64,000 nt of DNA, taken from positions 124,001 to 188,000 of the forward strand of contig NZ_MKVA01000006.1 in NCBI RefSeq assembly GCF_001899075.1. The letters run 5' to 3'. The translations under genes and the position numbers were made by a program. This stretch comes from Devosia sp. 67-54. GTDB lineage: Bacteria > Pseudomonadota > Alphaproteobacteria > Rhizobiales > Devosiaceae. This document shows positions 13,975 to 49,441 of the stretch, piece by piece (position 1 is the first letter of the stretch; every line of letters starts with the position of its first letter). Below the pieces are notes generated by a model that did not search any database, was not told the DNA's origin, and saw only the letters and a program-made list of their open reading frames with translations.

Positions 13975-13985
13975 CCGGAGCCACC

Positions 13986-25985: not shown

Positions 25986-28463
25986 ATGATGAAATTGGCG
26001 AGCAGGCTTGGGCGGATTTCCGTAATTCTCCCGGTGGTTATGGTGGCGTTGACGTTCGTTGCGAGCCTCGCCGTGGGGCTCGTCGGCTACTACAACGGAC
26101 AGTCGGGTCTTACGGCCGCCGTGCAAAGCGAACTCGAGTCACAGGCCGCCGCAAGCGCGAAGCTCCTCAACCTGAAGCTAAAGGACACTTCCGCGCAGCT
26201 TGATTCCCTGGCGCAGAGCGAGGGGGCGGGCCTGCTGAGCCAACTGAGTGTCCAACGCGTCGACGGGCAAATCCCAGCGGAAAAGCAGTACTTCACCGCG
26301 CCCAGCAGGATCGAGGACCGCGAAAAGCTTGATGGATCCGCTGTAAAGTCGATCTACAATTATCGACATTCCCAATACCACGCCACGTTCCTCGCGAACC
26401 TTAAGAACAACGGCTATGGGGATATCTACATCGTCAACTCCAGCGGCGACGTCGTGTACAGCGTCACGAAGTCGGAGGAGTTCTTCGACAACGTCGCAGA
26501 CAACGAGCTCAAGGACACCCCGCTCGCGTCGCTTTTCAACTCCCTGAAATCCGGCACCGCCCCGGCGGGCACCAGGTTGATCAGCTCGTTTGGCGTCTAC
26601 CAGAAGAAACCGGCGATCTTCGTCGCGGAGCCCGTGTTCGTCAAAGACTCATCGGACACACCGCAGTTCAGCGGAGTGATGGTGATCCGTCTCGATGTGG
26701 ACTTCTTCGATGCAGTGCTCGCGGATCGGATCGGCGAAACCGGCCAGGTGTTTATGGCCGATGCACAGGGGCAGGTCCTGTCGGATTTGCCACGTAGCCA
26801 GGATCCGACCGCGCTCGTTGCTCAACGGCCGTATCCCATATTGAAGTCGGTGCCGGCCGGCGGTGCATTTGGGATCGAATCCACCGAACAGGGTGAGATG
26901 ATGGTCGCCGCCGCACCGGTTGAGTTCCTCGGTACGACCTGGGTGGTCGTCGCTGAGCAGACGGTATTCGAGAGTCTCGCCGCCGTTCGCCAGATGGCGA
27001 CCGGTATGACGGTCGGAACCCTCGTCGTGCTCGGCCTGGCTTCGATCATTGCTATGGTTTTTGCCCGCTCACTCACAAAGCCGATCACGAATCTGACCCG
27101 GGTGATGAAGACGCTGGCGGACGGGCAGTACGAGGTCGATGTCCCCGGCACCAAACGCACCAACGAGCTTGGTGAAATGGCGCGCGCGGTCGAGGTCTTC
27201 CGCGAGAATGGTCGCAAAGTCGAAGCATTGACCGAAGAGGACAAGCTGGCGTCGGAGCGCCGCCGTGCGGACCGCGCCGCGATGATGACGTCACTGCAGC
27301 GCTCCTTCGGCGAAGTTGTCGATGCCGCTGTCGCGGGTGATTTCACCAAGCGTGTCTCGGCCAACTTCCCGGACGAGGAGTTGAATAAGCTTGCCGGCAG
27401 CGTCAACGGATTGGTCGATACGGTGGATCGCGGGCTCGGAGAAACTGGCAAGGTGCTTGGCGCGCTCGCCAGGACCGACCTAACGCACCGGGTAGAAGGA
27501 CAATTCAGCGGGGCATTCGACAGGCTGAAGGCAGACACCAATGCAGTCGCTGACCGACTAACCGGTGTTGTCAAACAGCTGCGCGAGACCTCGGGTGGGG
27601 TGAAGACCGCGGCGAGCGAAATTCTCGCCGGAGCGAACGATCTGTCGGAGCGGACCGCAAAGCAGGCGACGACGATCGAGGAGACATCCGCGGTGATGGA
27701 GCAACTTGCAACCACCGTGATGGACAATGCCAAAAAAGCTCAGTCGGCGTCAGGCGGTGCGAAGGACGTTTCGCACAAGGCGGAGGAAGGGGCGGTCGTG
27801 ATGTCTCGCGCGAACGAGGCGATGGAACGGATCACTCAATCATCGGGCGAGATCTCGAGTATCATTGGTCTGATCGATGACATCGCGTTCCAGACCAATC
27901 TTCTGGCTCTCAATGCCTCGGTCGAAGCGGCACGAGCTGGCGAGGCCGGCAAGGGTTTTGCCGTCGTCGCCGTGGAAGTGAGACGGCTGGCACAATCGGC
28001 CGCGCAGGCAAGCCGCGAAATCAAGGATCTCATTGAGCAGAGTGTCAACGAGGTCAAAGGCGGCAGCAGGCTCGTCGCCGACGCTGCGGCAAAGTTGAAC
28101 GCCATGGTCGAGGCGGCGCGGTCATCGAACGAACTGATGGAAGCCATCGCGCTCGAAAGTCGCGAGCAGGCCTCCTCTATCGAGGAAGTCAGCACCGCAG
28201 TACGCCAAATGGACGAGATGACCCAGCGCAACGCAGCTCTGGTCGAAGAGACGACGGCAGCCATTGAGCAGACCGAGGGACTCGCCTCCGAGCTCGACCG
28301 GATCATTGATGTGTTTCGGATCAACGAGGCCGTCGCGCAACGCGAGCGCATGGAAACCGCGTCAGCGGGAATTCGCTCTATTCAGAAGAAGGTCGCGACC
28401 GCCGCGAAGAGCTATCTAACCAAGGGAAGCGCGGCGGTGGCGCAAGACTGGGAAGAGTTCTGA
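25986..28463 (+). CDS. Methyl-accepting chemotaxis protein with Cache-type sensor
   Basis: An 825-residue transmembrane chemoreceptor. TM1 ([26 protein letters not shown]), a periplasmic sensor of about 280 residues resembling a double Cache domain, TM2 ([18 protein letters not shown]), HAMP regions, then a signalling domain with the hairpin-tip segment [27 protein letters not shown] region. The C-terminus ends DWEEF, like the xWEEF/NWETF tethers bound by CheR/CheB. ATG at 25986 has GAGGGGG upstream. The shared palindrome suggests it is induced with the esterase/ABC genes and senses their substrate or product. Confidence 0.92.
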
Positions 28464-28469
28464 AAGCTG

Positions 28470-29561
28470 CTATTTGACCATAAATCGCGAACTGAAGGGG
28501 AGGCTCGCTGCGCCGACGGCTTTCGGTGAGGGCGCGAGTGTCCCTGCAATCGCAGCGACACCTGGCACTGCCGCCGCGAGGGCGCGACAGATATCCTCGC
28601 AAACGGCCTGCGGCGCATAGGACGACAGGATCACCGTCTCAAGCTCGACGAATTGCTGCACGCCGGCGATCGAGCGGACCATCTCTTCGACGAGCTGCCT
28701 CTTCCAAGAGCCGAAGACTTCGCCGTAGTCAGGCCAATTGCCCGACCGATCCCAGAGCGCTTCGACTGAGAGTTTCTTCTTCTTGAGCGACTTTTCGAGT
28801 GCGGCGATGCCGACATCGAAAGTGACCGGCGAATTGCCATGGTGGATCTGGTGATTGAGAACGAGGCGACCGTGGAGTTTTGCTCCCAGGTAGAAGAACA
28901 TGTAGTCCGTTAGCGGCTTTGCTGCTCCGAACATGCTCTCGCCGCTGGCCGCCGCCGTAATGTCGTTCTGAACAAACACAGGCATCCCGAGATCGACTTC
29001 GATCTCGTCCTGCAGGGCCTTGTAGTATGCCTCCTCGTCGATGCCGATCGAGTCGGTATGGGGCAGAGCCAGGCCAACGCCGGCCAAGCGCTCGCGGGCC
29101 GGCAGCGGCAGCAATGATACGGCGTCTCGTATGGTCTTTAAGAATTCCGAATGGTTGCTTCCCGGATCGGACGTTGGCCTAGGAAGCGTCGCGTGAAACT
29201 GTACCTTGCCCACGAAGTCGATGAGGACGAGGTCGGCGTGACGATTGCCGATACTAATCCCGACGGAGAAGGCGCCCCCGGGGTTGAGTACGACCGGCAC
29301 GGTAGGCGGCCCCATCCGCCCTTTTTGGGCCTGTCCCTTGGCGACCAGGCCTTCCTGCTCGAGGGAGCGAACGATCACCGAGACGGTCTGTGCGGATAGG
29401 CCCGTTCGTTCGCCGATCTCGAGACGCGTCGTGCCTTCCTGCTGCAGCAGCAGCGAGAGGACCAGGCGTTCGTTGTAGCTGCGCACACTTACCGCGTTGA
29501 GACCGCTGGCGCGGTCAGCAATCCGGATTGGATTGGGCGGCGCAAATCGCATGTCAGGCAC
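28470..29561 (-). CDS. ROK-family transcriptional regulator
   Basis: About 363 residues: N-terminal winged HTH (NERLVLSLLLQQEGTTRLEIGERTGLSAQTVSVIVRSL) followed by a sugar-kinase-like ROK domain (FSVGISIGNRHADLVLIDFVG; VFVQNDITAAASGE). The kinase-type glycine and zinc motifs of active ROK kinases are not evident, so it is a regulator. It lies downstream of the SGNH esterase gene on the same strand with a short gap, as one leftward unit. I prefer GTG at 29561 (GGAGGG eight bases upstream); a GTG at 29591 is also possible. It probably represses the module through the TTATTCA-N7-TGAATAA sites. Confidence 0.86.
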   Translation of the reverse strand: MPDMRFAPPNPIRIADRASGLNAVSVRSYNERLVLSLLLQQEGTTRLEIGERTGLSAQTVSVIVRSLEQEGLVAKGQAQKGRMGPPTVPVVLNPGGAFSVGISIGNRHADLVLIDFVGKVQFHATLPRPTSDPGSNHSEFLKTIRDAVSLLPLPARERLAGVGLALPHTDSIGIDEEAYYKALQDEIEVDLGMPVFVQNDITAAASGESMFGAAKPLTDYMFFYLGAKLHGRLVLNHQIHHGNSPVTFDVGIAALEKSLKKKKLSVEALWDRSGNWPDYGEVFGSWKRQLVEEMVRSIAGVQQFVELETVILSSYAPQAVCEDICRALAAAVPGVAAIAGTLAPSPKAVGAASLPFSSRFMVK

Positions 29562-29624
29562 GGGAGCAGCCCTCCGTGCCTGAACGATCACGCATGTGAC
29601 CCTGGGAAGCGACTTCGATGCGTC

Positions 29625-30266
29625 TCATTTCCAACCGATCGCCTCGACCTCGCGAGCGAGCGCTATGCCAAGCCCATGATGTGCTTCGCGGCTCAGATGG
29701 AAGCCATCCCGTGGGTCGCACTCAATGGCCGATCCGGCGTCGAAGAAATGCACTTCAAGGGAGTCCGCAATGACCTCGAAGTGAAAAGCGAGCTCACGAG
29801 ACTTCGGCTGCCCGCCCTTGAAGATGTTCTCCCACTCCTTGAGGTCGTCGAGCATTGGAGGAGGTGAGACCACCATGATCTCCGGCGGGTGTGCGGCGGG
29901 GCCCGGACCTAGCTCGCGAATGTCGTGGACGAGGCACCCAATTGCCATAGCCACCTCTGACGCCGGTTGATTGAACCGTGCCTTCAAATCGTTTGTACCC
30001 AACATGATGATGACCAGATCGATCGGCGCGTGGCTCATAAGGCAGGGCCGTAGGTAGGTTCGGCCGTTCTTTTCGGGACCTTCAATGGGGTCATCCCGCA
30101 CGGTGGTTCTGCCGCTCAACCCTTCTTCAATGACATGCCAGGACGCCCCGAGCTCCTTCTGCAGGACCCCCGGCCAGCGATCAGCAAAAGCGAAGCGATC
30201 GAGCAGAGAACCGCCGGGCATTTGCCCGTGGGTGTTGCTGTCGCCGTAGCAGAGAACCGTCCGCAT
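29625..30266 (-). CDS. SGNH/GDSL-family esterase (cytoplasmic), copy 1
   Basis: A 213-residue SGNH hydrolase without a signal peptide. Catalytic blocks: GDSNTHG with Ser10, IMLGTND with the oxyanion Asn, and RDGFHLS with the Asp/His pair. GLSGRTT, found in the arylesterase/acetyl-xylan-esterase-like branch, is present. ATG at 30266 is preferred over an upstream TTG. It heads a leftward unit with the ROK regulator and is divergent from the ABC importer. It is similar to two further SGNH proteins at 35235 and 36064. Likely role: removal of a short acyl group (probably acetyl) from the imported compound. Confidence 0.88.
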   Translation of the reverse strand: MRTVLCYGDSNTHGQMPGGSLLDRFAFADRWPGVLQKELGASWHVIEEGLSGRTTVRDDPIEGPEKNGRTYLRPCLMSHAPIDLVIIMLGTNDLKARFNQPASEVAMAIGCLVHDIRELGPGPAAHPPEIMVVSPPPMLDDLKEWENIFKGGQPKSRELAFHFEVIADSLEVHFFDAGSAIECDPRDGFHLSREAHHGLGIALAREVEAIGWK

Positions 30267-30377
30267 CCTGGATCCGCTTGTCAAAAGCGAAGCTCAAACA
30301 ACATTTTAACGTCGTCTGAATGAGTCGCACGAGGGTGCATTGATCGCACCGACCATCCAAGATGACAAGCTCCAGAC

Positions 30378-30398
30378 ATATTCATTCACTCTGAATAA
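30378..30398. promoter_or_regulatory. Palindromic operator (putative ROK repressor site), copy 2
   Basis: TATTCA-N7-TGAATA with 6-bp perfect arms and the same TTCA start to the spacer as copy 1 (25937). It is immediately upstream of TTGACA at 30402, so it would control the importer operon. Lying between divergent units, it may also control the esterase-ROK unit (autoregulation). Confidence 0.65.
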
Positions 30399-30544
30399 GT
30401 GTTGACACATGACCGTCATCCATGGTCTGACCCCATCAGGAGGACGTCCGAGGACCAAGAAAAGCCAGTCGCTCACAGGCGACGGAACTCGGAACACCAG
30501 GACAGAAACCTGAGGATCGCGGCGGGGGAGGTTCCGTCGAGAGC

Positions 30545-30578
30545 CAGACCACTTGTCATATCGGGCTCAAGTGGTTTG
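30545..30578 (+). other. Hairpin in the 5' leader of the importer operon
   Basis: CAGACCACTTG (30545-30555) pairs with CAAGTGGTTTG (30568-30578) over 11 positions with one G-U, closing a 12-base loop. It is 41 bases before the start codon of the binding protein. No U-tract follows, so it is not an intrinsic terminator. It may stabilise the mRNA or act in control; no known riboswitch class was recognised. Confidence 0.5.
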
Positions 30579-30619
30579 CCAGGGATCGCAGTTTGGCCTG
30601 AGCTGCTAGGAGGAACACA

Positions 30620-31699
30620 ATGAAATTGCACTTCGTGGCTGCCGCGATGGCGGTCGCCGTCATGGTCGGGCTGTCAGCGCCCTCTTTCGCTGATGACGTC
30701 TTCACGCCACTTCCGGGCGCGGTCCCTGCGACTGGTGACAATCCTGTCGTCGATACGAGCCAGTTCAAGAAGCCGTGTGGCTGGACCATCGGCATGAGCG
30801 ACTTTGGCGTCAACGCCAACACCTGGACCGTCCAGGTGGCGCACGAGGCCCAGGCTGCGGCCGACCGCAACTCCTGCATCAAGAAGTTCATCCTGCTTGA
30901 CGCAAACTTCGATCAGAAGAAGCAGGTCGCCGACATCGAAGACCTGATCGCCCAGAAGGTCGACGCGATCATCGTTCAGCCAGTGACTTCTACCTCTGCC
31001 GACGAAGCAATCGAGAAGGCTAAGGCCGCGGGTATCCCGGTCATTCTGCACACCGGTCTGGTCGAGACCGATGCGTTCACCACTGAGATCCGCGCTGGCG
31101 GCGTGTGGTTCGGCAAGGTCATGGGCGACTGGCTCGTGAAGGAGCTCAACGGCAAGGGCAATATCTGGGTCCTGCGCGGTCTCGCCGGCCACCCGGAAGA
31201 CACCGGCCGTTACAATGGCCTTCTGGAATCGCTCAAGGGCTCGGATGTCAAGATCGTGGCCGAGGAGCATGGCGACTGGCAGTACGACAAGGGCAAGAAG
31301 GTTTGCGAAACCCTCTACGCCAAGGATCCCAACGTCGACGGCATCTGGTCGTCCGGCGCTGACATGACCCGCGCCTGTGTCGACGTCTTCAAGGAATTCG
31401 GCGCCAAGATCCCGCCGATCTCTGGCGAAGGCAATAATGGCTACTTCCGGCAGTGGATCGCTGACGGCTTCCCGTCGATTTCTCCGGAATACTCGCCCGC
31501 TCAAGGTGCTGCAGGCGTCGACCTCGCGGCGGCGATCCTCGACGGCAAAGGCGGCATCTACAAGCACTACGACTACAACCCGCCGGGCTGGGATATCGAG
31601 AAGGCCAAGAAGTACTTCCGTCCCGACCTGTCCGACGCGGTCTGGTGGTTCTCCGAGATGTCGGATGACCAGCTGAAGCAGTTCTACGCTAAGAAGTAG
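30620..31699 (+). CDS. Ribose-type ABC transporter substrate-binding protein (module A)
   Basis: A 359-residue periplasmic type-1 binding protein with a signal peptide cleaved probably after SAPSFA (about residue 24). The mature region has WTIGMSDFGVNANTWTVQVAHEAQAAA, DAIIVQPVTSTSADEAI and GKGNIWVLRGLAGHPED, all typical of the RbsB/XylF-like group. AGGAGG-type ribosome site upstream of ATG. It is first in an operon with a double ATPase and two permeases, then two SGNH esterases and glycerol/acetate genes. The ligand is unknown; the neighbourhood suggests an acylated glycerol or glycoside rather than a free pentose. Confidence 0.87.
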   Translation: MKLHFVAAAMAVAVMVGLSAPSFADDVFTPLPGAVPATGDNPVVDTSQFKKPCGWTIGMSDFGVNANTWTVQVAHEAQAAADRNSCIKKFILLDANFDQKKQVADIEDLIAQKVDAIIVQPVTSTSADEAIEKAKAAGIPVILHTGLVETDAFTTEIRAGGVWFGKVMGDWLVKELNGKGNIWVLRGLAGHPEDTGRYNGLLESLKGSDVKIVAEEHGDWQYDKGKKVCETLYAKDPNVDGIWSSGADMTRACVDVFKEFGAKIPPISGEGNNGYFRQWIADGFPSISPEYSPAQGAAGVDLAAAILDGKGGIYKHYDYNPPGWDIEKAKKYFRPDLSDAVWWFSEMSDDQLKQFYAKK

Positions 31700-31717
31700 T
31701 CTCTCCTCCCGAGACGG

Positions 31718-31748
31718 CCCGCCCGCTGAGCGCGCCTCGGCGGGCGGG
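31718..31748 (+). other. Strong intercistronic stem-loop after the binding-protein gene
   Basis: CCCGCCCGC (31718-31726) and GCGGGCGGG (31740-31748) form a perfect 9-bp GC stem. No U-tract follows and the ATPase gene starts 32 bp on. Such hairpins after binding-protein genes commonly protect the upstream mRNA and give higher binding-protein levels than transporter levels. Confidence 0.65.
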
Positions 31749-31779
31749 TGCTACCAAGATCAGGGGGTCCTGAGAGACT

Positions 31780-33294
31780 ATGCCCAACCTTGTCGAACTC
31801 TCGCACATCTCGAAGTCGTTCGGTGGAAGCCTCGCCGTCGACCACGTGTCGCTGGAGCTCTTTGGCGGATCCGTGCATGCCCTGATGGGTGAGAATGGCG
31901 CCGGCAAGTCGACCCTCATGAAAGTCCTTGCTGGCGTCTATCAGCCGGACGAGGGCGAGATCTTCAAGAACGGGCACAAGGTCTCGTTCGCGAACCCGCG
32001 CGAGGCACTTGAGTTTGGCATCTCCACGGTGTTCCAGGAGATGACGCTCCTGCCCAATCTGACGATCGCCGAGAACATGTATCTCGGCCGCGAGCCGCTG
32101 ACGGCCTTCGGGTCGATCGACTATCGCAAGATGAATTCCGATACCCAGGCGGCGCTGAGCGAACTCGGTCTAAGCCTGCCACCGCAGACGTTGGTTTCGG
32201 GCCTCTCGATCGCCGAGCGGCAGTTCGTCGAAATCGCTCACGGGGTGAAGGCCGATGCCTCGATCTTTGTTCTGGACGAACCGACTGCCGCATTGAACGC
32301 CGCAGACGTCGAGGTTCTCAACAAGCACATTCGCCGGCTACGCGATGCCGGTAAGGCCATCGTCTACATTTCGCATCGCATGGAGGAGATCTTCAACATC
32401 TGTGACACGGTCACGGTGCTGAAGGATGGAAAGCTCGTAGGCACACGGCCACTTTCCGAGATGACACCATCCTCACTGGTTGCAATGATGGTGGGGCGCG
32501 AGCTCCGAGATCTCTTCCCGAGCCGCGGCCAGGGCACGAACGGCCTTCTGCTTGACGTCAAGCACTTCAAGATCGGCGCCAGCACCAAGCCCTTCTCGTT
32601 GCAGGTCCATGGCGGGGAGATCGTCGGCCTCGCTGGGCTCGAGGGTCAGGGGCAGCAGAAGTTCCTTCGGTCGTTGATCGGCCAGTTCCAGCCATTCAGC
32701 GGAACCGTTGCGATCAAAGGCAAAGCGCTGCCGCTGCCCGTCAATCCGGCGTGGGGTGTGCGGCGCCTGCGTTCCATGGGCGTGGCCTTTGTTCCAGAGG
32801 ATCGAAAGGAAGAGGGACTCTTCCTCGGGCTTCCGATCGCCCACAACATCGCCATTGGCCTGCACTCGGCTCGGTCCGAGCTTGCGATTGCCAAGAACTA
32901 CCGTCAGCTGATCGCTGACTCCATCAAGTCACTCAACGTTCGAACGACGGGCCCCCAGGCGCATGCGGGATCCTTGTCAGGCGGCAATCAACAGAAGGTT
33001 CTGCTCGGTCGATATCTGGCCGAAGGGGTCGACATTCTTCTCGTCGAGGAACCGACGCGCGGCGTCGACGTCGGGGCAAAGTCCGAGATCTACAAATTGC
33101 TGCGCGACTTCGCTGCAAAAGGCGGGGCGGTCATCGTTCTCTCCCGCGAAACCGTCGAGCTCATCGGCCTCTGTGACCGGATCCTGGTTGTCCACGGCAA
33201 CACGGTCGTCTCGGAGATGGCTGGGGCGTCGGCTGCCGAGCAGGACATCCTCAACGCGGCACTCAACGCCGAAGCAGTGGTGGAACAGGAATGA
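31780..33294 (+). CDS. Ribose-type ABC transporter double ATPase (module A)
   Basis: A 504-residue protein with two ABC domains: Walker A GENGAGKST near residue 40, Walker B IFVLDEPTAAL, then a second domain with degenerate Walker A (GLEGQGQQK), signature LSGGNQQK and VEEPTRGVDVG. Closest layout is RbsA/XylG. It powers import together with the two following permeases. The stop overlaps the next start by 4 bp (ATGA). Confidence 0.9.
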   Translation: MPNLVELSHISKSFGGSLAVDHVSLELFGGSVHALMGENGAGKSTLMKVLAGVYQPDEGEIFKNGHKVSFANPREALEFGISTVFQEMTLLPNLTIAENMYLGREPLTAFGSIDYRKMNSDTQAALSELGLSLPPQTLVSGLSIAERQFVEIAHGVKADASIFVLDEPTAALNAADVEVLNKHIRRLRDAGKAIVYISHRMEEIFNICDTVTVLKDGKLVGTRPLSEMTPSSLVAMMVGRELRDLFPSRGQGTNGLLLDVKHFKIGASTKPFSLQVHGGEIVGLAGLEGQGQQKFLRSLIGQFQPFSGTVAIKGKALPLPVNPAWGVRRLRSMGVAFVPEDRKEEGLFLGLPIAHNIAIGLHSARSELAIAKNYRQLIADSIKSLNVRTTGPQAHAGSLSGGNQQKVLLGRYLAEGVDILLVEEPTRGVDVGAKSEIYKLLRDFAAKGGAVIVLSRETVELIGLCDRILVVHGNTVVSEMAGASAAEQDILNAALNAEAVVEQE

Positions 33295-34253
33295 ACCGGG
33301 GTCTCCTACGACTGTTGACGGGCGGCTATGGGCGGCAGGGTCTGTGGCTGGCGCCCCTCATTGTCACGTTGCTCCTCGCGGGCTTCCTGACCGTTAGAAC
33401 GCCTGACTTCCTGCGGACGGAGAACCTGCTCAACGTCGTCGCCCAGGTGCTGCCGATCATGATCACTGCGATCGGTCAGACCTTCGTCGTGATCGCCGGC
33501 GGCCTCGACCTCTCCGTCGGCTCGTTGATCAGCTTCACGACGGCGGTTCTCGCGATGGATGGGCCGGGCTACATCCTCATTCCGGCGGCATTCGCGTTCG
33601 CGGTGCTGGTGGGCCTCACCAACGGCCTCGTGGTGACGCGGTTCAACGTCCATCCAATTATCGCTACGCTCGCCATGCAATACATTCTGCTCGGTGCGGT
33701 CCGGTTGCTGCGGCCAGTCGCTGGGGGCACCTTGCCCGATATCGTCCTCGAGTCGGTGAACGGCGCGCCCTTCGGCATTCCAATGGCGTTGATCTGGGCG
33801 GTGGTCGCGATCGCGACTGCCTGGAAGCTTCTCTACGGCACGCGGTTCGGGTTGCACCTGTTCGCGATCGGCGGTGGGACGGCCTCGGGAAATGAGCAGG
33901 CAGCGCGCAACTTCGGCGTCTCTGACAAGCGCACGATGGTCTTGGCCTACGTCATCTCATCGTGTTTCGCAGCGCTCGCCGGTGTCTATCTTGCCGGACG
34001 AATTTCCTCAGGCGACCCCAATGTCGGTCTTGGGTTCGAGCTCGATGCCATCACGGCCGTCGCCATCGGGGGCACGCAGCTCTCGGGCGGCATCGGAAGC
34101 CTTCCGGGTACGGTGATCGGAGCGCTAGTCCTCGCGCTTTTGTCAAACGGTATGAACCTCACCAACATCTCGCCGTTCATTCAGACCGCCATCAAGGGCG
34201 CCATCCTCATGGCTGTTGTTGGACTTCAGTCACGCAAGAAGATGGGGCTCTAG
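33291..34253 (+). CDS. Ribose-type ABC transporter permease 1 (module A)
   Basis: A 320-residue inner-membrane permease of the BPD_transp_2 class. The signature GGLDLSVGSLISFTTA and the NVHPIIATLAMQYILLG helix are present, and GFELDAITAVAIGGTQLSGGIGS is the conserved C-terminal loop. It starts inside the ATPase stop (ATGA) and ends exactly one base before the next permease start, so the operon is tightly coupled. Confidence 0.89.
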   Translation: MNRGLLRLLTGGYGRQGLWLAPLIVTLLLAGFLTVRTPDFLRTENLLNVVAQVLPIMITAIGQTFVVIAGGLDLSVGSLISFTTAVLAMDGPGYILIPAAFAFAVLVGLTNGLVVTRFNVHPIIATLAMQYILLGAVRLLRPVAGGTLPDIVLESVNGAPFGIPMALIWAVVAIATAWKLLYGTRFGLHLFAIGGGTASGNEQAARNFGVSDKRTMVLAYVISSCFAALAGVYLAGRISSGDPNVGLGFELDAITAVAIGGTQLSGGIGSLPGTVIGALVLALLSNGMNLTNISPFIQTAIKGAILMAVVGLQSRKKMGL

Positions 34254-35210
34254 ATGACTGCGGTACTCAACAACTCGATCGTCCAGCGCCTGCTGCGCGT
34301 ACCTCCAGCGTACTACGTCTTCACTATCCTTTTGATCACGCTGTGGGTCTACCGGCCCGCGATGCTGAACCCAAACGTGCTCGGCGTGTTTGTCCGGCAA
34401 AACGCACCGCTTGGCGTCCTGGTCCTCGGGCAGCTGATCGTGATGCGGGTCAAGAGCATCGATCTTTCGGGCGGCGGGATCATCCTCCTCGTCAACTACT
34501 TCATATCGTCGGGCCTCTTCCCTGACGCCTCGCTTGCCTTTTTTGCCGCCATCGCGTTGGGGACCGGTACGGCGATCGGTCTCTTCAACGGCCTTATGAT
34601 CGGCAAGCGGCATGCTTCTGCGGTGATCGTGACGCTTGCTGTGAGTATCATGCTCGTCGGACTGGTGCAGTTCCTCTCGAGCGGCAAGCCGCCGGGAGAT
34701 GTCCCAAGCTTCCTCAACGACATGTACGACACGAAGTTGGGTGTCGTTCCCACTCCCGTAATCTTCTGGGCGTTCCTGACCCTGATTGTCGCTGGCCTGC
34801 TGTCGTTCACCGTATTTGGTCGCTTCGTGGACTCGGTCGGCGAGAGCGCGGAGGCGGCGCACTTTTCCGGCGTTCCCGTCGAGAGGACCGTCGTGCTCGC
34901 CCATACGATTGCTGGTTTTATCGCGGGACTTGCGGCCCTGGTGCAAACAGCCTCGATCGCGGTCGGCAGCGTGCGCGTGGGTCTAGACCTTCCGATCCTG
35001 TCCGTCGCCGCGACTATCCTCGGCGGCGTCGTGTTTGGCCGGGGTGAGGGCGGCGTGTGGGGCCCGTTCTTCGGTGTCCTATCCTTCACATTTCTGTTTG
35101 TCGTCATGACCGCGTTCGGCGTCAGCGACCCAGGCAAACTGATCGCGCAGGGGGCGATCATCTTGCTGGCTGCAATCTTCTACGGCGTGCGGCTCGCGAG
35201 ATCCCGGTAG
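34254..35210 (+). CDS. Ribose-type ABC transporter permease 2 (module A)
   Basis: A 318-residue permease of the same class. The signature is altered to VKSIDLSGGGIILLVNYF, and HASAVIVTLAVSIMLVGLVQFL and GLDLPILSVAATILGGVVFGRGEGG are recognisable. It abuts permease 1 with no spacer. Two different permeases imply a heterodimeric channel. An AGGAGG box and the SGNH esterase follow after 24 bp, placing the hydrolase in the same transcript. Confidence 0.88.
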   Translation: MTAVLNNSIVQRLLRVPPAYYVFTILLITLWVYRPAMLNPNVLGVFVRQNAPLGVLVLGQLIVMRVKSIDLSGGGIILLVNYFISSGLFPDASLAFFAAIALGTGTAIGLFNGLMIGKRHASAVIVTLAVSIMLVGLVQFLSSGKPPGDVPSFLNDMYDTKLGVVPTPVIFWAFLTLIVAGLLSFTVFGRFVDSVGESAEAAHFSGVPVERTVVLAHTIAGFIAGLAALVQTASIAVGSVRVGLDLPILSVAATILGGVVFGRGEGGVWGPFFGVLSFTFLFVVMTAFGVSDPGKLIAQGAIILLAAIFYGVRLARSR

Positions 35211-35234
35211 GAACATCGATCTAGTTGAGGAGGT

Positions 35235-35918
35235 ATGATGCACAACCAGAAGTCGATCCTGTGTTTTGGTGACTCACTGACCTGGGGCTGGATCCCGGTC
35301 AAGGAGGGGTCGCCGACGCTGCGCTATCCTTACAGGCAGCGTTGGACCGGCGTTATGGCCGACGAGCTAGGCGACGGCTATCAGGTCATCGAAGAGGGGT
35401 TGAGCGCGAGGACGACGAGCGCCGACGACCCGAATGATCCGCGCTTGAATGGGAGCGCCTATCTTCCTGCGGCGCTTGCCAGCCACCTCCCGCTCGATCT
35501 CGTTATCCTAATGCTCGGAACGAACGACACCAAGCCATACTTCAACCGCGGGCCGTACGACATTGCTTTCGGCATGTCTAAGCTTGTGGGGCAGGTCCTC
35601 ACGGTGAGCGGCGGCGTAGGCACGCCGTATCCGGCGCCCAAGTGCCTCGTGATTGCGCCTCCGCCCTTGGCACCGATCCCGCACCCCTTCTTTCAGGGGA
35701 TGTTCGGTGGCGGCCACGAAAAGACAAACGAACTGGCCAAACAGTACCGGAGCATGGCCGACTTCATGAAGGTCGGCTTCCTCAACGCCGGCGACGTCAT
35801 CACCACTGACGGCGTCGATGGCATCCACTTCACCGTGGAGAACAATCAGACCTTGGGGCGGGCTATCGCCGCCAAGGTCAAAGATATGTTGGTTCGCGAC
35901 CAGGCTGCGGCAGCCTAG
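35235..35918 (+). CDS. SGNH/GDSL-family esterase (cytoplasmic), copy 2
   Basis: A 227-residue SGNH hydrolase without signal peptide. Catalytic Ser is in FGDSLTWGW (about Ser14), the oxyanion Asn in LMLGTND and the Asp/His pair in VDGIHFT. EEGLSARTT is shared with the other two copies. The start is ATG 35235 or 35238, after a GAGGAGG box. It is translated from the ABC importer operon, so it probably acts on the compound just after uptake. An arylesterase-like or acetylesterase activity is the likely chemistry. Confidence 0.89.
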   Translation: MMHNQKSILCFGDSLTWGWIPVKEGSPTLRYPYRQRWTGVMADELGDGYQVIEEGLSARTTSADDPNDPRLNGSAYLPAALASHLPLDLVILMLGTNDTKPYFNRGPYDIAFGMSKLVGQVLTVSGGVGTPYPAPKCLVIAPPPLAPIPHPFFQGMFGGGHEKTNELAKQYRSMADFMKVGFLNAGDVITTDGVDGIHFTVENNQTLGRAIAAKVKDMLVRDQAAAA

Positions 35919-36063
35919 TCGCAGGGGTTCGGCGCCCCTCGCGCCGAACCCGCCTATTTCGTTCCGGCATAGGAGGATTCCACCGACCTAGAGACTAGCA
36001 GACTTCCGTACCGACCGTAGTGCGAGCGGAACCTCGCACATTACCATCACCTTGGAGGAGCTC

Positions 36064-36825
36064 TTGAATACGTTCAATCGGGCAATGATTTGTGCTGCCC
36101 TCGTCTTGTCTGCAGTTTGCGCCGCATCAAGCCCCGCTAACGCGGATGCCAAGAGGATCATGGTGTTCGGCGACTCGAACTCCTGGGCTTGGCATCCCGT
36201 TCCTGAGATTGCCCCTGTTGTTCGCTATCCACAAGATGTCGCTTGGCCCGGTGTGATGGCGAAGGACCTCGGGGACGGGTTCGAAGTCATTAACGAGTCT
36301 CTTTCCGCTCGAACGGCCGTCGTGACCGATAAGTCCGTCGACAAGGGGTTGGGGCTGAGCGGAGCCGGCCTGAGTGGCGCCGAGTATCTGCCGGCAGCGA
36401 TCGCCACCAACATGCCCCTCGACCTCGTTATTATCATGTTGGGGACTAATGACGTCAAGCCGGTTTACAATAGAACCGCGCTCCAGGTTAGCCTCGACGT
36501 GATGTCGCTCGTCGCAGAGGCTCAGAAGGACACGGGCGTCGCAACATCTTACCCCGCACCCAAGGTATTGGTCGTGGTCCCGCCGCATCTCGGAAAGATT
36601 GCGAATGTTGACTGGGTACAGGCGATGTTTCCGCAAGCCTCGGTCGTCGAGTCTGGGCAGATTGCTGAGTATCTCTGTCCGCTCGCAGAGTCGGTGAAGG
36701 TGCTGTGTTTCGATGGAGGTAGCGTTGCGGAGATCACGGGTCCCGATGGCATCCACATGACGCCAGAGAATCACAAGAAGCTCGGCGACGCGGTCGCTGC
36801 CGAAGTTCTCAAAATTCTGCAGTAA
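36064..36825 (+). CDS. SGNH/GDSL-family esterase with signal peptide (periplasmic), copy 3
   Basis: A 253-residue SGNH hydrolase with a Sec signal peptide (MICAALVLSAVCAASSPANA, cleavage near residue 27), so it should act in the periplasm. Catalytic Ser is in FGDSNSWAW (about Ser38), Asn in IMLGTND and Asp/His in PDGIHMT. I chose TTG at 36064 (GGAGG five bases upstream), which gives a good signal peptide; a TTG at 36052 adds four residues. It probably trims acyl groups before import or acts on larger substrates, complementing the two cytoplasmic copies. Confidence 0.85.
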   Translation: MNTFNRAMICAALVLSAVCAASSPANADAKRIMVFGDSNSWAWHPVPEIAPVVRYPQDVAWPGVMAKDLGDGFEVINESLSARTAVVTDKSVDKGLGLSGAGLSGAEYLPAAIATNMPLDLVIIMLGTNDVKPVYNRTALQVSLDVMSLVAEAQKDTGVATSYPAPKVLVVVPPHLGKIANVDWVQAMFPQASVVESGQIAEYLCPLAESVKVLCFDGGSVAEITGPDGIHMTPENHKKLGDAVAAEVLKILQ

Positions 36826-36838
36826 GTCCGACCTGGAG

Positions 36839-36864
36839 CCGCCGCATCCGGAAGGGTGCGGCGG
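36839..36864 (+). other. Intercistronic hairpin before glpD
   Basis: CCGCCGCA pairs with TGCGGCGG around a TCCGGAAGGG centre between the third esterase and glpD. There is no U-run, so it is probably an mRNA processing or stability element rather than a terminator. Confidence 0.5.
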
Positions 36865-36890
36865 GGCAGGGCGCGAGCAAAGGCTGGTAT

Positions 36891-38420
36891 GTGGTGTCGC
36901 GGGACGTATTTGACTTGTTCGTCATCGGCGGAGGGGTGAACGGCTGCGGCATCGCGCGCGACGCTGCAGGGCGGGGCTACAAGGTCGGGCTTGCTGAGAT
37001 GAACGACTTCGCGAGCGGAACCTCAAGCAAAGCGACCAAGCTGATACATGGCGGCCTGCGGTATCTTGAGCACTATGAGTTTCGCTTGGTGCGGGAGGCG
37101 CTGAGCGAGCGCGAGACGCTTCTCAAAATGGCGCCTCACATCATTTGGCCACTGCGCTTTGTCTTGCCTCACCACCGCGACATGCGTCCGGCCTGGCTCC
37201 TTCGCCTGGGCCTGTTTCTCTACGACCATATTGGTCACCGCAGGTTACTCCCGCCGACCAAAACGATTGACCTGCAAAGTTCGCCGCTCGGGGCACCGCT
37301 AAAGCCTGGCTATGTGCGGGGCTTCGAATATTCGGACTGCTGGGTGAACGACGCTCGTTTGGTCGTCTTGAATGCAAAGGACGCCAAGGATCGAGGAGCA
37401 ACAATTCTGCCGCGTACGCGCGTCGTGAGCGCGCGCAGGGCATCCGGCCTATGGCAGCTTGAGCTCGAGAATGTCACGACAGAGGCGCGCGAGCAGGTTT
37501 ACGCGCGCATCCTTGTCAATGCTGCCGGCCCGTGGGTCGACCAGGTGCTCTCCAATGTAGTTGGCAGCAACAGCGCCAAGAACGTTCGCCTGGTGAAAGG
37601 CAGCCACATCGTCGTGCCCAAGCTATTTGAGCATGATCGCGCCTATATTTTTCAGAACGGCGATGGTCGCATCATTTTCGTCATTCCCTACGAGCATAAC
37701 TTCTCGCTGATCGGGACGACCGATCAGGATTATGACGGCGATCCTAAGGATGTCCGGATTAGTCCGGCGGAGATTGCATACCTTTGCCATGCGGCGAGCG
37801 AGTATCTCGTGAAGCCGGTAGAAGAAGCCGCGGTCGTTTGGGCCTACTCGGGAGTTCGCCCGCTCTATGACGACGGTGCGTCGGCCGCCCAGGAAGCAAC
37901 ACGTGACTATGTGTTGCGCGTCGATGCCGAGGGCACCGGCGTTCCATTGCTCAGCATTTTTGGCGGCAAGATCACGACCTTCCGCCGCTTGTCCGAGGCC
38001 GTGCTTGAGAGGGTCGAAGCCCTCGTTGGGAAGAAGGGAGGCCCTTGGACGGCAGGATCACAGCTGCATGGGGGAGACTTCGGACCTGACGAATTCGCCC
38101 AGAAGCTGAGTGTACTGAAGCGGGACTATCCTTTCCTGCAGCCGGAGCACGCGCTGCGCCTTTTTCGCAGCTACGGCACTTGCGCATGGATTTTGCTCGG
38201 AACTGCCAGAAAGCAGGCGGATCTCGGTCGGGACTTTGGCGGTTCCCTTACCCAAAGAGAGGTCGAATATCTGATGAAGGAGGAATGGGCGTTCACGGCC
38301 GAGGATGTGCTTTGGCGGCGCAGCAAACTCGGCCTGACGGTCTCGGCGAGCCAGGCTGCGAACCTTGCGAACTGGATGACTGAACATCGCGCTGCTGCCG
38401 CGATCGCGGCGGCGACGTGA
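36891..38420 (+). CDS. glpD: FAD-dependent glycerol-3-phosphate dehydrogenase
   Basis: A 509-residue membrane-associated flavoenzyme that oxidises sn-glycerol 3-phosphate to dihydroxyacetone phosphate and passes electrons to quinone. N-terminal FAD site [22 protein letters not shown], then [28 protein letters not shown], the classic GlpD signature, and later [14 protein letters not shown] and [14 protein letters not shown] at 36891 is the start. It lies 65 bp after the third esterase and 7 bp before glpK. It links the esterase module to central metabolism. Confidence 0.94.
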
Positions 38421-38427
38421 GGCGGGA

Positions 38428-39942
38428 ATGAACGGGCGCTACATACTTGCCATCGATCAGGGAACGTCTTCCACTCGAGCCATCATCTTCGACGAGCGGC
38501 AGGCGATCGTCGCGATCAGCCAAAGGGAGTTCGCTCAGCACTTCCCTTTGCCCGGCCGTGTCGAGCATGACCTTGCCGACATCTGGAACTCGGTGGTCGT
38601 CACCTCGAGAGAGGCACTCCAGCGTGCTGGTCTGACTGCTGTTGACCTTGCTGCGATTGGCATCACCAATCAGCGCGAGACAGTGGCCGTTTGGGATCGG
38701 TCGACTAGTGAGCCGATCCATCGCGCGATCGTCTGGCAGGATCGTAGGACTACGGAAGACTGCGCAAGACTGGAAGCCGCGGGTCTCGGAGAGGTTGTCC
38801 GTCGCAAGGCCGGGCTTTTGCTCGACCCCTATTTCTCAGGAACGAAAATAGCCTGGATACTCGACAACGTCGAAGGCGCACGAACTCGAGCCGAAAGGGG
38901 CGAGCTGGCCTTTGGCACGATCGACAGCTTCTTGATCTGGAAGCTGACGGGTGGACGTGTTCACAAGACGGACGCGACCAATGCGTCTCGCACATCACTG
39001 TTCGATATCATGGCGAACCGGTGGGATGATGAGCTCTGCGCGGCATTCCGCGTTCCGCGAGCTGTTCTTCCCGAGGTAGAGGATTGCGCGGCAGATTTCG
39101 GTGAGACGGACGAAGACTTCCTTGGCGCACCCGTTCTGATCCGCGGTGTCGCGGGCGACCAGCAAGCCGCCGCTTTGGGGCAGGCCTGCTTCGAGCCAGG
39201 AAGCATCAAAGCGACATATGGAACGGGTTGCTTCCTGCTGCTGCAAACTGGAAGTCGGGCCGTCGCGTCGAGCCATCGTCTACTGACGACGGTTGCCTCG
39301 CGGCTGGATGGGAAGATCAGCTACGCGCTTGAAGGGTCAGTCTTTGTCGCCGGGGCGGCCGTACAGTGGTTGCGCGACGGTCTCGGCATTATCAAGTCGT
39401 CCAGTGAAAGTGGACGGCTCGCCGCTCAGGCGGACCAATCGCAGGACGTGGTCGTCGTCCCGGCATTTACCGGCCTTGGTGCCCCCTACTGGGACGCGAG
39501 CGCGCGGGGGGCAATCTTCGGGCTCAACCGCAACAGTGGACCCAAGGAACTGGCTCGCGCCACGCTGGAGGCGGTGTGTCTGCAGACGCGCGACGTCGTC
39601 GAGGCAATGGCGGCCGACTACGACTTCGATCCGAAAGATGCGGGCCTCAAGGTTGATGGCGGGCTGGCTGCCAGCGACTGGGCCATGCAGTTCCAGGCTG
39701 ACCTACTCGGTTGTCACGTCGACCGCCCGGTGATCACGGAGACGACTGCGCTGGGCGCCGCGTGGCTGGCCGCCGTTTCTGTCGGGCTTTGGCCTGGGCA
39801 GCAGGACTATGCGCGCAGCTGGCGACTGGAGCGGCGTTTCGACGGGGCCAGCGACGCCTCCGGCACTGAACGAAAGTATCGGAGATGGAAGGCCGCGGTC
39901 GAGGCGACGCGCAGCTTTGCCCGTCACGGCACTGACGGATGA
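38428..39942 (+). CDS. glpK: Glycerol kinase
   Basis: A 504-residue FGGY kinase that phosphorylates glycerol. N-terminal [19 protein letters not shown], the GITNQRET and VWQDRRT substrate region, [14 protein letters not shown], the conserved [12 protein letters not shown] and the FGGY-type [21 protein letters not shown] are all present, so it appears active. It is coupled to glpD and makes its substrate. No glpF facilitator is seen in the window, in keeping with glycerol arriving in esterified or bound form through the ABC importer. Confidence 0.95.
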
Positions 39943-39988
39943 TTTGCCGGGATGACCGGCCACGAAGCACCCATTGTTGAGTGAGACC

Positions 39989-41884
39989 ATGACGTCCAGT
40001 CGCGAAAACTATGATCTGAGTTATCATCGCTCGGTGACAGACCCGGACGGGTTCTGGCGCGACCAGGCCATGCGGCTCGAGTGGTCGCGTTTTCCCTCTC
40101 GCATCAAGGATACGAGTTTCGCCCTCCCCGATATCTCGATCAAATGGTTTGAGGATGGGGAACTCAACGCTTGCTACAATTGCGTCGACCGCCACCTTGC
40201 CACGCGCGGCGACCAGACCGCGCTGATCTGGGAGGGTGATACCCCCGGTACTGATGACAAGGTCAGCTACAGCGAGCTCCACGAGCGGGTCTGCCGCTTC
40301 GCCAACGTTCTGAAGGCGCAGGGCGTCAAGAAGGGCGACCGCGTCACCATCTACATGCCGATGGTGATCGACACGGCGGTGGCGATGCTGGCCTGTGCCC
40401 GCATCGGCGCGGTTCACTCCGTGATCTTCGGCGGTTTCTCGCCGGATTCGATCGCCGGCCGCATCAACGATTGCGACAGCAAGATCGTGCTGACCGCCGA
40501 CGAGGGTCGACGCGGCGGCAAGCTGATCCCGCTCAAGAAGAATGTCGATGAGGCCTTGCTCAAGGCGCCCGGCGTCAGGACGGTCATCGTCGTCGCCGTG
40601 ACCGGCAATGACGTTGCGATGAGCGCAGGTCGCGACATTCGCTATGATGATGCCGCGCGTCTGGCTCCTGCCGATTGTCCCCCCGAGCCGATGAATGCAG
40701 AGGATCCACTGTTCATCCTCTACACCTCGGGGTCGACGGGAAAGCCCAAGGGGGTGCTGCACACCACGGGCGGCTATCTGGTTTACGCATCGCTCACCCA
40801 TCAGGTGACGTTCGACTATAGGCCGGGTGAAGTCTATTGGTGCACCGCCGACGTCGGCTGGGTGACGGGCCACAGCTATATCGTTTACGGCCCGCTGGCC
40901 AACGGCGCGACGTCGCTGATGTTCGAAGGCATTCCGAGCCACCCGGCGGCAGACCGCTTCTGGGAAGTCATCGAGAAACACGAGGTCAACATCTTCTACA
41001 CGGCGCCGACGGCGATCCGCGCGCTGATGGGGGCAGGCAACGAACTCGTAGACAAGCACGTGATGCCGTCGCTCCGGTTGCTGGGCTCGGTGGGCGAGCC
41101 GATCAATCCTGAGGCCTGGCTCTGGTACCACAAGCATGTGGGCAAGGAGCGCTGCGAGATCATCGACACCTGGTGGCAGACCGAGACTGGCGGCTTCAAG
41201 ATCACGCCGCTGCCGGGTGTCATCGCGACCAAGCCGGGCTCGGCGACGCTGCCGTTCTTCGGCGTCCAGCCGGTCGTACTGTCACCCGAGGGCAAGCTGC
41301 AGGAGCAGACCAAGGCTGAGGGCGTGCTGGCCATCGCCGACAGCTGGCCGGGACAGATGCGCACGGTCTATGGCGACCACGAGCGGTTCGTTCAGACCTA
41401 CTTCACGCAGTACAAGGGCTACTACTTCACCGGCGACGGCTGCCGCCGCGACGAGGACGGCTACTACTGGATCACCGGCCGCGTCGATGACGTGCTGAAC
41501 GTCTCTGGTCACCGCATCGGCACGGCCGAGGTCGAGAGCGCCCTAGTGGCCCATCCGAAGGTCGCCGAGTCGGCGGTCGTGGGCTACCCGCACGACATCA
41601 AGGGCCAAGGCATCTACTGTTACGTGACCCTGATGGCGGGCGAGGAGGGCGACGACGCGCTCAAAACCGAGCTCAGGAACTGGGTCCGCAAGGAAATCGG
41701 CGCCATAGCGACTCCCGACCTGATCCAGTTCGCGCCGGGTCTGCCGAAAACCCGTTCGGGCAAGATCATGCGCCGCATCCTGCGCAAGATCGCCGAGAAC
41801 GAACACGGGTCGCTGGGCGACACGACGACGCTTGCCGACCCGAGCGTTGTGACCGTCCTCGTGGCGCAGCGGCTCAACCGATAG
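39989..41884 (+). CDS. acsA: Acetyl-CoA synthetase (AMP-forming)
   Basis: A 631-residue adenylate-forming enzyme converting acetate, ATP and CoA to acetyl-CoA. Core motifs: [11 protein letters not shown] (P-loop), [20 protein letters not shown] hinge, and the C-terminal [10 protein letters not shown] with the acetylatable catalytic Lys. The residues are those of acetate-specific Acs. I prefer the ATG at 39989; a TTG five codons upstream is in frame. Its codons are more GC-biased than those of glpK and fba, so it may have joined the module separately. Beside three esterases it suggests acetate is a released product. Confidence 0.94.
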
Positions 41885-41900
41885 AGCAAGGAACGCCTGA

Positions 41901-42965
41901 TTGCCTCTGATATCGCTTCGCCAACTCTTGGACCACGCCGCCGAGCAAAACTACGGCATGCCTGCGTTCAATGTGACCAACCTTGAGACACTACAGGGTG
42001 TCATGCAGGCGGCGGAGGAGACCAGAAGTCCTGTTATCCTGCAGGCCAGCCAGAGCGCGCGCCGCTACTGCGATGACACCTTCATCGGTCACCTGTTTCA
42101 GGCGGCGATCGAGCGCTATCCGCACATCCCGATTTGCGTTCACCAGGACCACGGATCGAGCCTTGCGATCTGTATCGCTGCTATGGACCTCGGCTTCTCA
42201 TCGGTGATGATGGATGGATCGCTCGAGGCGGATCAGAAGACACCATCGAGCTTCGACTACAATGTCAGTGTAACGCGCGGTGCAGTACGGGAGGCTCATG
42301 CCCGCGGAGTTTCAGTCGAGGGCGAGATAGGCGTTCTGGGCTCGCTCGAGAGCGGGACCGGCGAGAAGGAGGACGGACACGGAATTGAAGGGGTAGTGGA
42401 CAAGTCCCTGCTGCTGACAGATCCGGATCAGGCGGCGCAGTTCGTTGCAATGACGGGCGTCGATGCCCTAGCGGTTGCGGTGGGGACGTCGCACGGAGCC
42501 TACAAATTCACGCGCAAGCCGACTGGTGACATTCTTGCCATGGATGTCATCGAGGCCATGCATGCGAAGCTTCCGAACACCCATCTTGTCATGCATGGCG
42601 CCTCGACAGTGCCCGATGACCTGCAGCAGCTCATCAACGACAACGGCGGAAACATCCCAAGCACCTTTGGCGTGCCCCTCGAAGAGGTCGAGTGCGGCAT
42701 TCGGTCGGGCGTGCGCAAGATCAACATCGACACGGATCTGCGGATGGCGATAACAGGATCGCTGCGCAAGTATTTCCAGGATCATCCTGACTCGTTCGAC
42801 ATTCGGGCAGCCATGAAGCCGGGGGTCGCACGGATCAAGGCCCTGTGTGTCGAGCGGTTCGAGAGGTTTGGGTGTGCCGGGCAATCTGAGGTGATCAAGG
42901 CACTCAGCCTCGTGGAAATGAAGAAGCATTATACCAACGCGGCCGTCGCAGAGCGAGCCCGATGA
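41901..42965 (+). CDS. fba: Class II fructose-1,6-bisphosphate aldolase
   Basis: A 354-residue zinc-dependent aldolase. Features: MPLISLRQLLDHAAEQNYGMPAFNV region, VHQDHGSS with the Zn His, DGSLEADQKTPSSFDYN, VAVGTSHGAYKF and LVMHGASTVP and NIDTDLRMA for DHAP binding. The start is TTG at 41901 with AAGGA upstream, 16 bp after acsA. It would join DHAP from GlpD with glyceraldehyde 3-phosphate toward fructose 1,6-bisphosphate; a fructose-bisphosphatase remnant directly follows, as if the pair once formed a gluconeogenic end to the pathway. Confidence 0.93.
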   Translation: MPLISLRQLLDHAAEQNYGMPAFNVTNLETLQGVMQAAEETRSPVILQASQSARRYCDDTFIGHLFQAAIERYPHIPICVHQDHGSSLAICIAAMDLGFSSVMMDGSLEADQKTPSSFDYNVSVTRGAVREAHARGVSVEGEIGVLGSLESGTGEKEDGHGIEGVVDKSLLLTDPDQAAQFVAMTGVDALAVAVGTSHGAYKFTRKPTGDILAMDVIEAMHAKLPNTHLVMHGASTVPDDLQQLINDNGGNIPSTFGVPLEEVECGIRSGVRKINIDTDLRMAITGSLRKYFQDHPDSFDIRAAMKPGVARIKALCVERFERFGCAGQSEVIKALSLVEMKKHYTNAAVAERAR

Positions 42966-43000: not shown

Positions 43001-43387
43001 CGAAGCTGCAGGCGTTCGCGCGTGGCGCATTGGGACGACGCGATTGCGAAGTATGTCGAGGCGAGGACCCATGGCCAGTCTCGCTTTAACATGCGCTGGA
43101 CGGGGTCCATGGTTGCGGACGTTCAACGCATCCTTCGGCGTGGCGGAGTCTTCCTCTATCCGGCTGACAGCGAGACGCGCTCGCGGGGCGGGCGATTGCG
43201 GCTGCTCTATGAAGCCGCTCCGATCGCTCTGATCGTCGAGAGCGCGGGCGGAAGGGCGAGCACCGGTCGTCGCGATCTGCTCGACATCGCCGCCATAGAT
43301 ATCCATCAGCGCGTCCCCGTCATTCTGGGATCGTCGGTCGAGGTCGACCAGTTGGTACTGGCCTACAAACAAATGAGTGAGGCGTAG
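43001..43387 (+). pseudogene. fbp: Class I fructose-1,6-bisphosphatase, C-terminal remnant
   Basis: About 120 residues match the C-terminal third of FBPase: FNMRWTGSMVADVQRILRRGGVFLYPADS, GRLRLLYEAAPIALIVESAGGRASTGRRDLLDI and HQRVPVILGSSVEV. A typical enzyme is about 330-350 residues; the N-terminal catalytic metal-binding part is missing, and a TGA at 42998 closes the frame. It lies right after fba, so a former fba-fbp pair was broken by deletion. The fragment cannot be an active phosphatase. Confidence 0.83.
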
Positions 43388-46792: not shown

Positions 46793-46818
46793 CCCATTCA
46801 CCCGAAACGGAGCCGCCC

Positions 46819-49366: not shown

Positions 49367-49387
49367 GATACATAACATCTGCGCATA

Positions 49388-49441
49388 TACAGTGACATTG
49401 TTTTTCTTTTCCTTGACGACAGCTGGTCCTTATAGTGACAT
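49388..49441. promoter_or_regulatory. Direct repeats in the LysR/ABC divergent region
   Basis: TACAGTGACAT (49388-49398) and TATAGTGACAT (49431-49441) are direct repeats with a 43-bp period, about four helical turns. They lie just upstream of the LysR gene within a 281-bp region that otherwise shows no gene. They may be LysR binding sites; no full T-N11-A palindrome was verified. Confidence 0.4.

Follow-up and report, generated by a model that had tools for sequence, protein, structure and literature searches.

Classical glycerol uptake is by GlpF or, in rhizobia, by the GlpSTPQUV ATP-binding cassette (ABC) importer. The teu genes, which serve bean-exudate uptake and are named in the annotation of Sinorhizobium fredii GR64, encode a CUT2-like importer that is plasmid-borne in bean-nodulating rhizobia. 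The structure 2q0q, an aryl esterase in its PDB listing, is presumably that of the enzyme MsAcT. The crystallized protein 5hoe is named SmEst24 in a review, which presents it as an acetylesterase that prefers acetyl over butyl esters, reports assays on artificial substrates only, and leaves its biological role speculative (PMC9487903). Here we describe a gene module in a 64,000-nucleotide stretch of the Devosia sp. 67-54 genome (contig NZ_MKVA01000006.1, positions 124,001 to 188,000, hereafter the window), which combines a ROK-family regulator, a CUT2 importer, and three SGNH esterases with glpD, glpK, acs, and fba. We conclude that this is a real, conserved, and probably co-regulated catabolic module. 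Its likely role is to sense, import, and hydrolyze an acetylated glycerol, either a mono- or diacetin-like compound or a small glycerol-acetyl natural product, with salvage of both the glycerol and the acetate.

Like classical glycerol uptake, the module ends in GlpK and GlpD; unlike it, the importer is of the CUT2 type and is accompanied by esterases and Acs. The teu binding protein is ∼43% identical to that of the window, and no SGNH, ROK, or glp genes are annotated in 21 kb at the teu loci (L063 and L064, around 9923-14549; L numbers are our locus labels). Whereas SmEst24 is known as an isolated enzyme acting on artificial substrates, the window esterase SGNH-B, which is homologous to both SmEst24 and MsAcT, sits in an importer/regulator module. 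More distant relatives of the binding protein occur in Caballeronia and Martelella (L065 and L066), with an annotated glycerol dehydrogenase within ∼7 kb.

Conservation of the Seven-gene Core

The core of the module comprises the ROK regulator, SGNH-A, the binding protein, the ATPase, two permeases, and SGNH-B, and this block is kept in many Hyphomicrobiales. A search of named genomes with the binding protein returned 48 loci, chiefly in Mesorhizobium, Rhizobium, and Shinella. The ROK and SGNH-A genes were on the opposite strand in all 48 loci. SGNH-B followed the second permease in 43 of them, and the sequence of the other five stops short of that point. When plasmid records and further genomes were added to the named genomes, all seven core genes were found in 70 of the 75 loci with enough flanking sequence, a count that takes in repeats of one contig and close strains. 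Among the exceptions, L093, L096, and L097 have another hydrolase in the SGNH-B slot, with ROK and SGNH-A also missing from L096 and L097; L094 is a lone binding protein adjoining a chemoreceptor; and L098, the most distant relative, has the importer only.

The binding protein is nevertheless rare. With up to five candidates scored per genome, it was detected at an E-value of 1e-100 in 15 of 397 genomes of the order of Rhizobium rhizogenes and in 20 of 394 genomes of its family (the genome at the center of the search counted), and at 1e-80 no instance besides the window's own was found among 385 genomes of the class to which the window belongs. At 1e-60 it was present in none of the 18 same-genus genomes listed in a search of 101 genomes.

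A paralogous module was also observed (L198, 3673-8577; L196, around 1501), in which a ROK protein and an SGNH-A protein, 40 and 57% identical to those of the core, diverge from the genes of a dissimilar binding protein and importer. At L198 the paralogous module has a motif similar to the operator-like motif described below, followed by TTGACG. Importers for acylated small molecules may form a wider set, with the module of the window as one of its branches.

Separate Recruitment of Glycerol and Acetate Genes

Genes of the glp/acs type lie behind or beside the core in 13 of the 84 loci with a binding protein of at least 48% identity. Ten of these are of the R. rhizogenes/opine-plasmid type. 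The remaining three are L051 (Rhodobacter sp. KR11), with glpK behind the core; L114, where a secreted GDSL-family hydrolase of another type is followed by glpD and glpK on the same plan as in the window; and L029, with acs beside the core on the opposite strand. We mapped glp/acs matches on either strand onto a binding-protein tree of 38 rows, which remained from 78 after removal of rows more than 97% identical. The minimum number of changes was four for glpK and three for acs (L029 counted), with glpK behind SGNH-B in four separate places of the tree and acs beside the core in two or three. Under a binomial that assumes two glpK genes per 5 Mb and takes the 38 rows as independent, the chance of four glpK neighbors is 9e-7 and that of three is 6e-5.

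The histories of the attached genes differ. In the acs tree (43 rows) the window gene is nested in its own genus (support 100/99), and the plasmid gene and the other R. rhizogenes acs are sisters (99/97). Forcing the window and root-inducing (Ri) plasmid acs genes into one clade cost 239 log units and was rejected by the approximately unbiased (AU) test (p-AU 8e-10), so that, for acs, the idea that the whole set moved once between the Ri plasmids and the lineage of the window is rejected. Among the 35 rows of the glpK tree, the module copy of KR11 has the strain's other glpK as its sister (99/93), and the L114 copy groups with glpK of another family (99/94). A single clade of all four module GlpK types was rejected (p-AU 3e-9), as was a clade of KR11, Ri, and window glpK (p-AU 2e-4); rejection of a clade of L114, Ri, and window glpK was marginal (p-AU 0.044). 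The groups were chosen after inspection of the trees, and these p values are somewhat too favorable. The trees indicate that acs and at least part of the glpK genes were recruited to the core separately. That the core gained the same enzymes more than once is the strongest indication that it yields glycerol and acetate.

The glp/acs genes are a recurrent add-on to the core and not part of a fixed operon. The first-pass annotation of the window, made without database searches, had proposed to look for conserved co-occurrence of these genes, and the outcome was mixed: glpK and acs are recurrently attached to the core, but most related loci have the core with neither nearby, and a fixed esterase-glp-acs operon was rejected on that ground. 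Chance neighborhood of the glp/acs genes and the core was in turn made unlikely by their repeated separate attachment. Core-only genomes need not lack these enzymes, as a search of module-bearing genomes recovered glpK in all four and acs in all 10 examined (both sets mix attached and unattached cases).

A Fuller Version on Ri and Opine Plasmids

On pRi1724 the gene order is ROK and SGNH-A on one side and, on the other, binding protein, ATPase, two permeases, SGNH-B, glpK, glpD, acs, adenylate kinase (adk), chemoreceptor, fbp, fba, and tpiA. The whole 18.2-kb stretch is covered in 13 plasmid records, including pRi1724, at 87.9-99.6% DNA identity, a count of DNA coverage and not of the intactness of each gene. 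A fourteenth record, pAt1 of strain Kin002, covers 71% of the stretch. These plasmid genes supply what the conversion of glycerol and acetate to hexose phosphate and acetyl-CoA requires, including recycling of the AMP from Acs. The window set, for which the first-pass annotation knew of no described operon with exactly the same genes, is therefore not unique. We found no description of the plasmid cluster in literature searches, and the available portions of PMC6341043, PMC10410297, and PMC3454389 do not mention the module.

The clusters of four named plasmids (pRi1724, pAoF64/95, pRiNCPPB1855, and pRi_26-59) share with the window the core, glpK, glpD, acs, and a chemoreceptor gene preceded by the operator-like motif; fba, present in the window, was seen in three of the four. 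The plasmid order is glpK-glpD, whereas that of the window is glpD-glpK. The plasmid clusters add adk, a full fbp, and tpiA, they have no annotated SGNH-C, and their acs is of separate origin. The plasmid adk and tpiA had no match in the window, which retains only a remnant of fbp and so falls short of the full plasmid set. On the Ri/opine plasmids (L058, 1-9008; L067, 2625-12638) the module adjoins another ABC importer, a Zn-dependent hydrolase, two kinase-like proteins, and a histidinol-phosphatase-like protein.

An Operator-like Motif before the Importer and Chemoreceptor Genes

A palindromic 20-base operator-like motif, TANTCATTCANNNTGANTAA, was identified between SGNH-A and the binding-protein gene, and a second copy stands before the chemoreceptor gene of the window (Table 1). 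No other site with one mismatch or fewer occurs in the 4.2-Mb genome; the expectation for the window from shuffling is 0.15 even at three mismatches. The motif was found with at most two mismatches in all 66 distinct intergenic regions (50 exact, three with one mismatch, and 13 with two), the 66 remaining from 81 after removal of those with identical last 200 bases. A reversed control pattern had 3 to 6 mismatches in the same regions. TTGACA usually follows the motif within a few bases in the related regions. Among 25 genomes searched, 22 had a motif site and none had a site for the reversed control pattern.

In the four Ri/opine plasmid loci a second site, with one mismatch, directly precedes the chemoreceptor gene behind the adenylate kinase gene. 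Because a copy of the motif stands before a chemoreceptor gene both in the window and on these plasmids, a chemoreceptor is probably in the ROK regulon in both lineages, the binding of ROK to the motif being suggested by their co-occurrence. At L094 a two-mismatch site precedes a small reading frame and the lone binding-protein gene adjoining a chemoreceptor. This region (8977-12941, contig G101:C12) belongs to an R. rhizogenes genome with the full module on the same contig, and its second binding protein and chemoreceptor are perhaps a chemotaxis pair.

Binding Protein and Esterases

The structural model of the binding protein was good (predicted local distance difference test score 87), and its closest folds are sugar-binding proteins. 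The neighbors bind several sugars, leaving an attempt to read the ligand from the structure undecided.

SGNH-B of S. meliloti pSymA is identical to PDB 5hoe over the aligned native residues; for S. meliloti SGNH-A no identical solved structure was found. The window SGNH-B combines GDS, GTND, and DxxH blocks with homology to 2q0q and 5hoe, and its acetylesterase activity is predicted by analogy with the S. meliloti orthologue. GDS, GTND, and DG(I/F)H blocks are retained in SGNH-A, SGNH-B, and SGNH-C alike, and SGNH-C is 42-43% identical to SGNH-B.

Three distant relatives of the module have an α/β hydrolase, as judged by Pfam, in the SGNH-B slot (L093, 4934-5701, minus strand; L096, 13925-14686, plus strand; L097, 13971-14732, plus strand). 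The L093 protein is homologous along its full length to LipS (E 5e-71) and to a thermostable monoacylglycerol lipase (E 1e-60), both in the PDB, and those of L096 and L097 are 80% identical to it. Its activity on monoacylglycerols is putative. The occupation of one slot by two unrelated folds, one of them from a monoacylglycerol-lipase family, fits a glycerol ester as the substrate.

Proposed Pathway and Rival Explanations

In the pathway that we propose for an acetylated glycerol, periplasmic trimming by the secreted esterase SGNH-C would precede uptake through the CUT2 importer, and cytoplasmic SGNH-A and SGNH-B would take off the remaining acetyl groups. GlpK and GlpD would then convert glycerol to dihydroxyacetone phosphate, Acs would convert acetate to acetyl-CoA, and Fba, on the plasmids with Fbp and TpiA, would route triose to hexose phosphate. 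AMP released in the Acs reaction would be recycled by the plasmid adenylate kinase. The ROK protein would bind the operators before the importer genes and the chemoreceptor gene, such that uptake, breakdown, and chemotaxis respond together. The first-pass annotation had proposed the same flow from ester to glycerol and acetate and on through GlpK/GlpD and Acs. Repeated attachment and the shared motif now support that flow and its genes are not a fixed operon, while the substrate and its acetyl group are what we infer.

Several observations weigh against this pathway. No glpK was found within 9.5 kb downstream in 31 of the 38 binding-protein rows (for six of the 31 the downstream sequence extends 5.9-9.2 kb), so that glycerol is deduced from the minority carrying the gene. 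The acs at L029, on the opposite strand, is the sole acs found in its genome at an E-value of 1e-220 and may be a chance neighbor, and the window and Ri glpK genes may have a single origin (support 83/50, on long branches). Arabinose, galactofuranose, and ribose are the ligands of the closest binding proteins of solved structure, and no ester-binding relative was among the 50 structural matches listed. SGNH-B homologues occur without the importer in Pararhizobium and Skermanella, the paralogous ROK/SGNH-A module indicates a possible role of the regulator and esterase pair with other acylated compounds, and for the two substituted hydrolases scanned no NCBIfam model reached its cut-off. The Ri motif precedes the receptor behind adenylate kinase and not the one upstream of the pRi1724 module, which is the one that matches the window chemoreceptor along its length (32% identity over 801 columns).

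A different or variable short acyl chain, with the module then serving short monoacylglycerols generally, is doubtful, if far from negligible. The LipS/monoacylglycerol-lipase-family hydrolase in place of SGNH-B in three relatives would suit such a role, as would the less efficient acceptance of butyrate by SmEst24 (PMC9487903). However, the window Acs is far above the acetate-CoA ligase cut-off (Table 1) and below that for propionate-CoA ligase (TIGR02316, 552.9 versus 827.4 bits), and acs was attached separately in at least two lineages. We consider it unlikely that glycerol is just one component of a larger acetylated ligand, for example an acetylated plant metabolite or glyceryl glycoside, with the other enzymes encoded elsewhere. 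The sugar-binding CUT2 type of the binding protein and the activity of SmEst24 on glucose pentaacetate and cellulose acetate (PMC9487903) are in its favor. Yet no glycosidase is annotated among the recurrent genes of five annotated Ri/opine loci in a partial check, and the full set ends at fbp-fba-tpiA, which needs triose and acetate only.

The close structural neighbors of the binding protein include 4rsm and 4rs3, which we take to be polyol-binding proteins. An importer for free glycerol or a plain polyol, with the SGNH proteins as general deacetylases, is nevertheless improbable, given that both SGNH genes accompany the importer as constantly as the core count above indicates (70 of 75 loci) and that free glycerol gives no need for Acs and adenylate kinase. 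Finally, the absence of glp/acs genes near the core at most loci might mean that an importer/esterase core for acylated sugars merely has a glycerol/acetate cluster behind it by chance. That glpK and acs joined the same core repeatedly and separately makes this very improbable, as do the gaps of 7-133 bases from SGNH-B to fba. Moreover, among 30 binding-protein-family matches in the window's genome (two being pieces of one frame), none besides that of the module lies within 10 kb of a GlpK or Acs scoring above cut-off, of which the genome has two each.

Genes and Setting of the Module in the Window

Every gene listed by the first-pass annotation was confirmed in place by Pfam, NCBIfam cut-offs, and catalytic blocks. 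The chemoreceptor gene, the two copies of the motif, the fbp remnant, and the second glpK, glpD, and acs of the genome were absent from it. The importer has all CUT2 parts, namely a Peripla_BP_4 binding protein, a double ABC ATPase, and two BPD_transp_2 permeases, and the ROK protein consists of a winged helix-turn-helix and a ROK domain. From the binding-protein gene to fba, intergenic distances on the plus strand range from -4 to 133 bases. Elsewhere in the genome are a second glpK with its own glpD and a second acs, and the module copies are thus extra. Scans for promoters and terminators gave site numbers about equal to those in shuffled sequence.

Table 1. Features of the module and its flanks in the window
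Feature	Position	Strand	Basis or remark
Operator-like motif, copy 2	25938..25957	+	Exact TANTCATTCANNNTGANTAA; 28 bases before chemoreceptor ATG 25986
Methyl-accepting chemotaxis protein	25950..28463	+	Pfam: dCache_1, HAMP, MCPsignal; likely start ATG 25986
ROK-family transcription regulator	28470..29591	-	Pfam PF00480, PF13412
SGNH-A esterase	29625..30284	-	PF13472; divergent from importer genes; no signal peptide seen
Operator-like motif, copy 1	30379..30398	+	Before importer genes; TTGACA three bases on
Periplasmic binding protein, CUT2/ribose type	30620..31699	+	PF13407
Importer ATPase, two ABC domains	31780..33294	+	PF00005, two stretches
Importer permease 1	33291..34253	+	PF02653
Importer permease 2	34254..35210	+	PF02653
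SGNH-B esterase, MsAcT/SmEst24 family	35235..35918	+	PDB 5hoe E 6e-111, 2q0q E 4e-98; no signal peptide seen
SGNH-C esterase, predicted periplasmic	36052..36825	+	PF00657/PF13472; signal-peptide-like N terminus by eye
glpD, glycerol-3-phosphate dehydrogenase	36891..38420	+	NF008899, 780 bits (cut-off 360)
glpK, glycerol kinase	38428..39942	+	TIGR01311, 670.8 bits (cut-off 590.35)
acs, acetyl-CoA synthetase	39974..41884	+	TIGR02188, 1003.6 bits (cut-off 724.95)
fba, class II fructose-bisphosphate aldolase	41901..42965	+	TIGR01521, 526 bits (cut-off 496)
fbp, class 1 fructose-bisphosphatase, C-terminal remnant	43022..43387	+	PF18913

The fbp remnant aligns with residues 203-321 only of the pRi1724 enzyme and suggests that a fuller gene set was once present in the window lineage. 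A phage-type integrase gene (24360-25637) lies where G+C drops from ∼0.67 to ∼0.60 at ∼24 kb (the lower value over 24000-64000), which suggests acquired DNA, as at the edge of an island. The sole tRNA gene of the window is at 18594-18667. A second catabolic cluster at 44349-50688 encodes a binding protein, an MmgE/PrpD-family protein, an amidase, a LysR regulator, and an ABC importer ATPase.

Implications

An importer with esterases and salvage enzymes is a familiar type of system, and the interest of this one lies in its substrate, its link to chemotaxis, and its presence on root-inducing plasmids. The analysis offers a testable natural role for the SmEst24/MsAcT enzymes, so far known from artificial substrates, and a ligand prediction for the importer on S. 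meliloti pSymA and on Ri plasmids, with a defined DNA motif that ties the predicted ligand to chemotaxis. More speculatively, acetylated glycerol might be an unrecognized nutrient and attractant in plant-associated and other niches, for which the pathway was assembled repeatedly and the SmEst24/MsAcT esterases evolved; the Ri and opine plasmids would then carry a complete mobile version, possibly for an undescribed plant or root compound. The module also draws attention to a compound that may pass between roots and bacteria.

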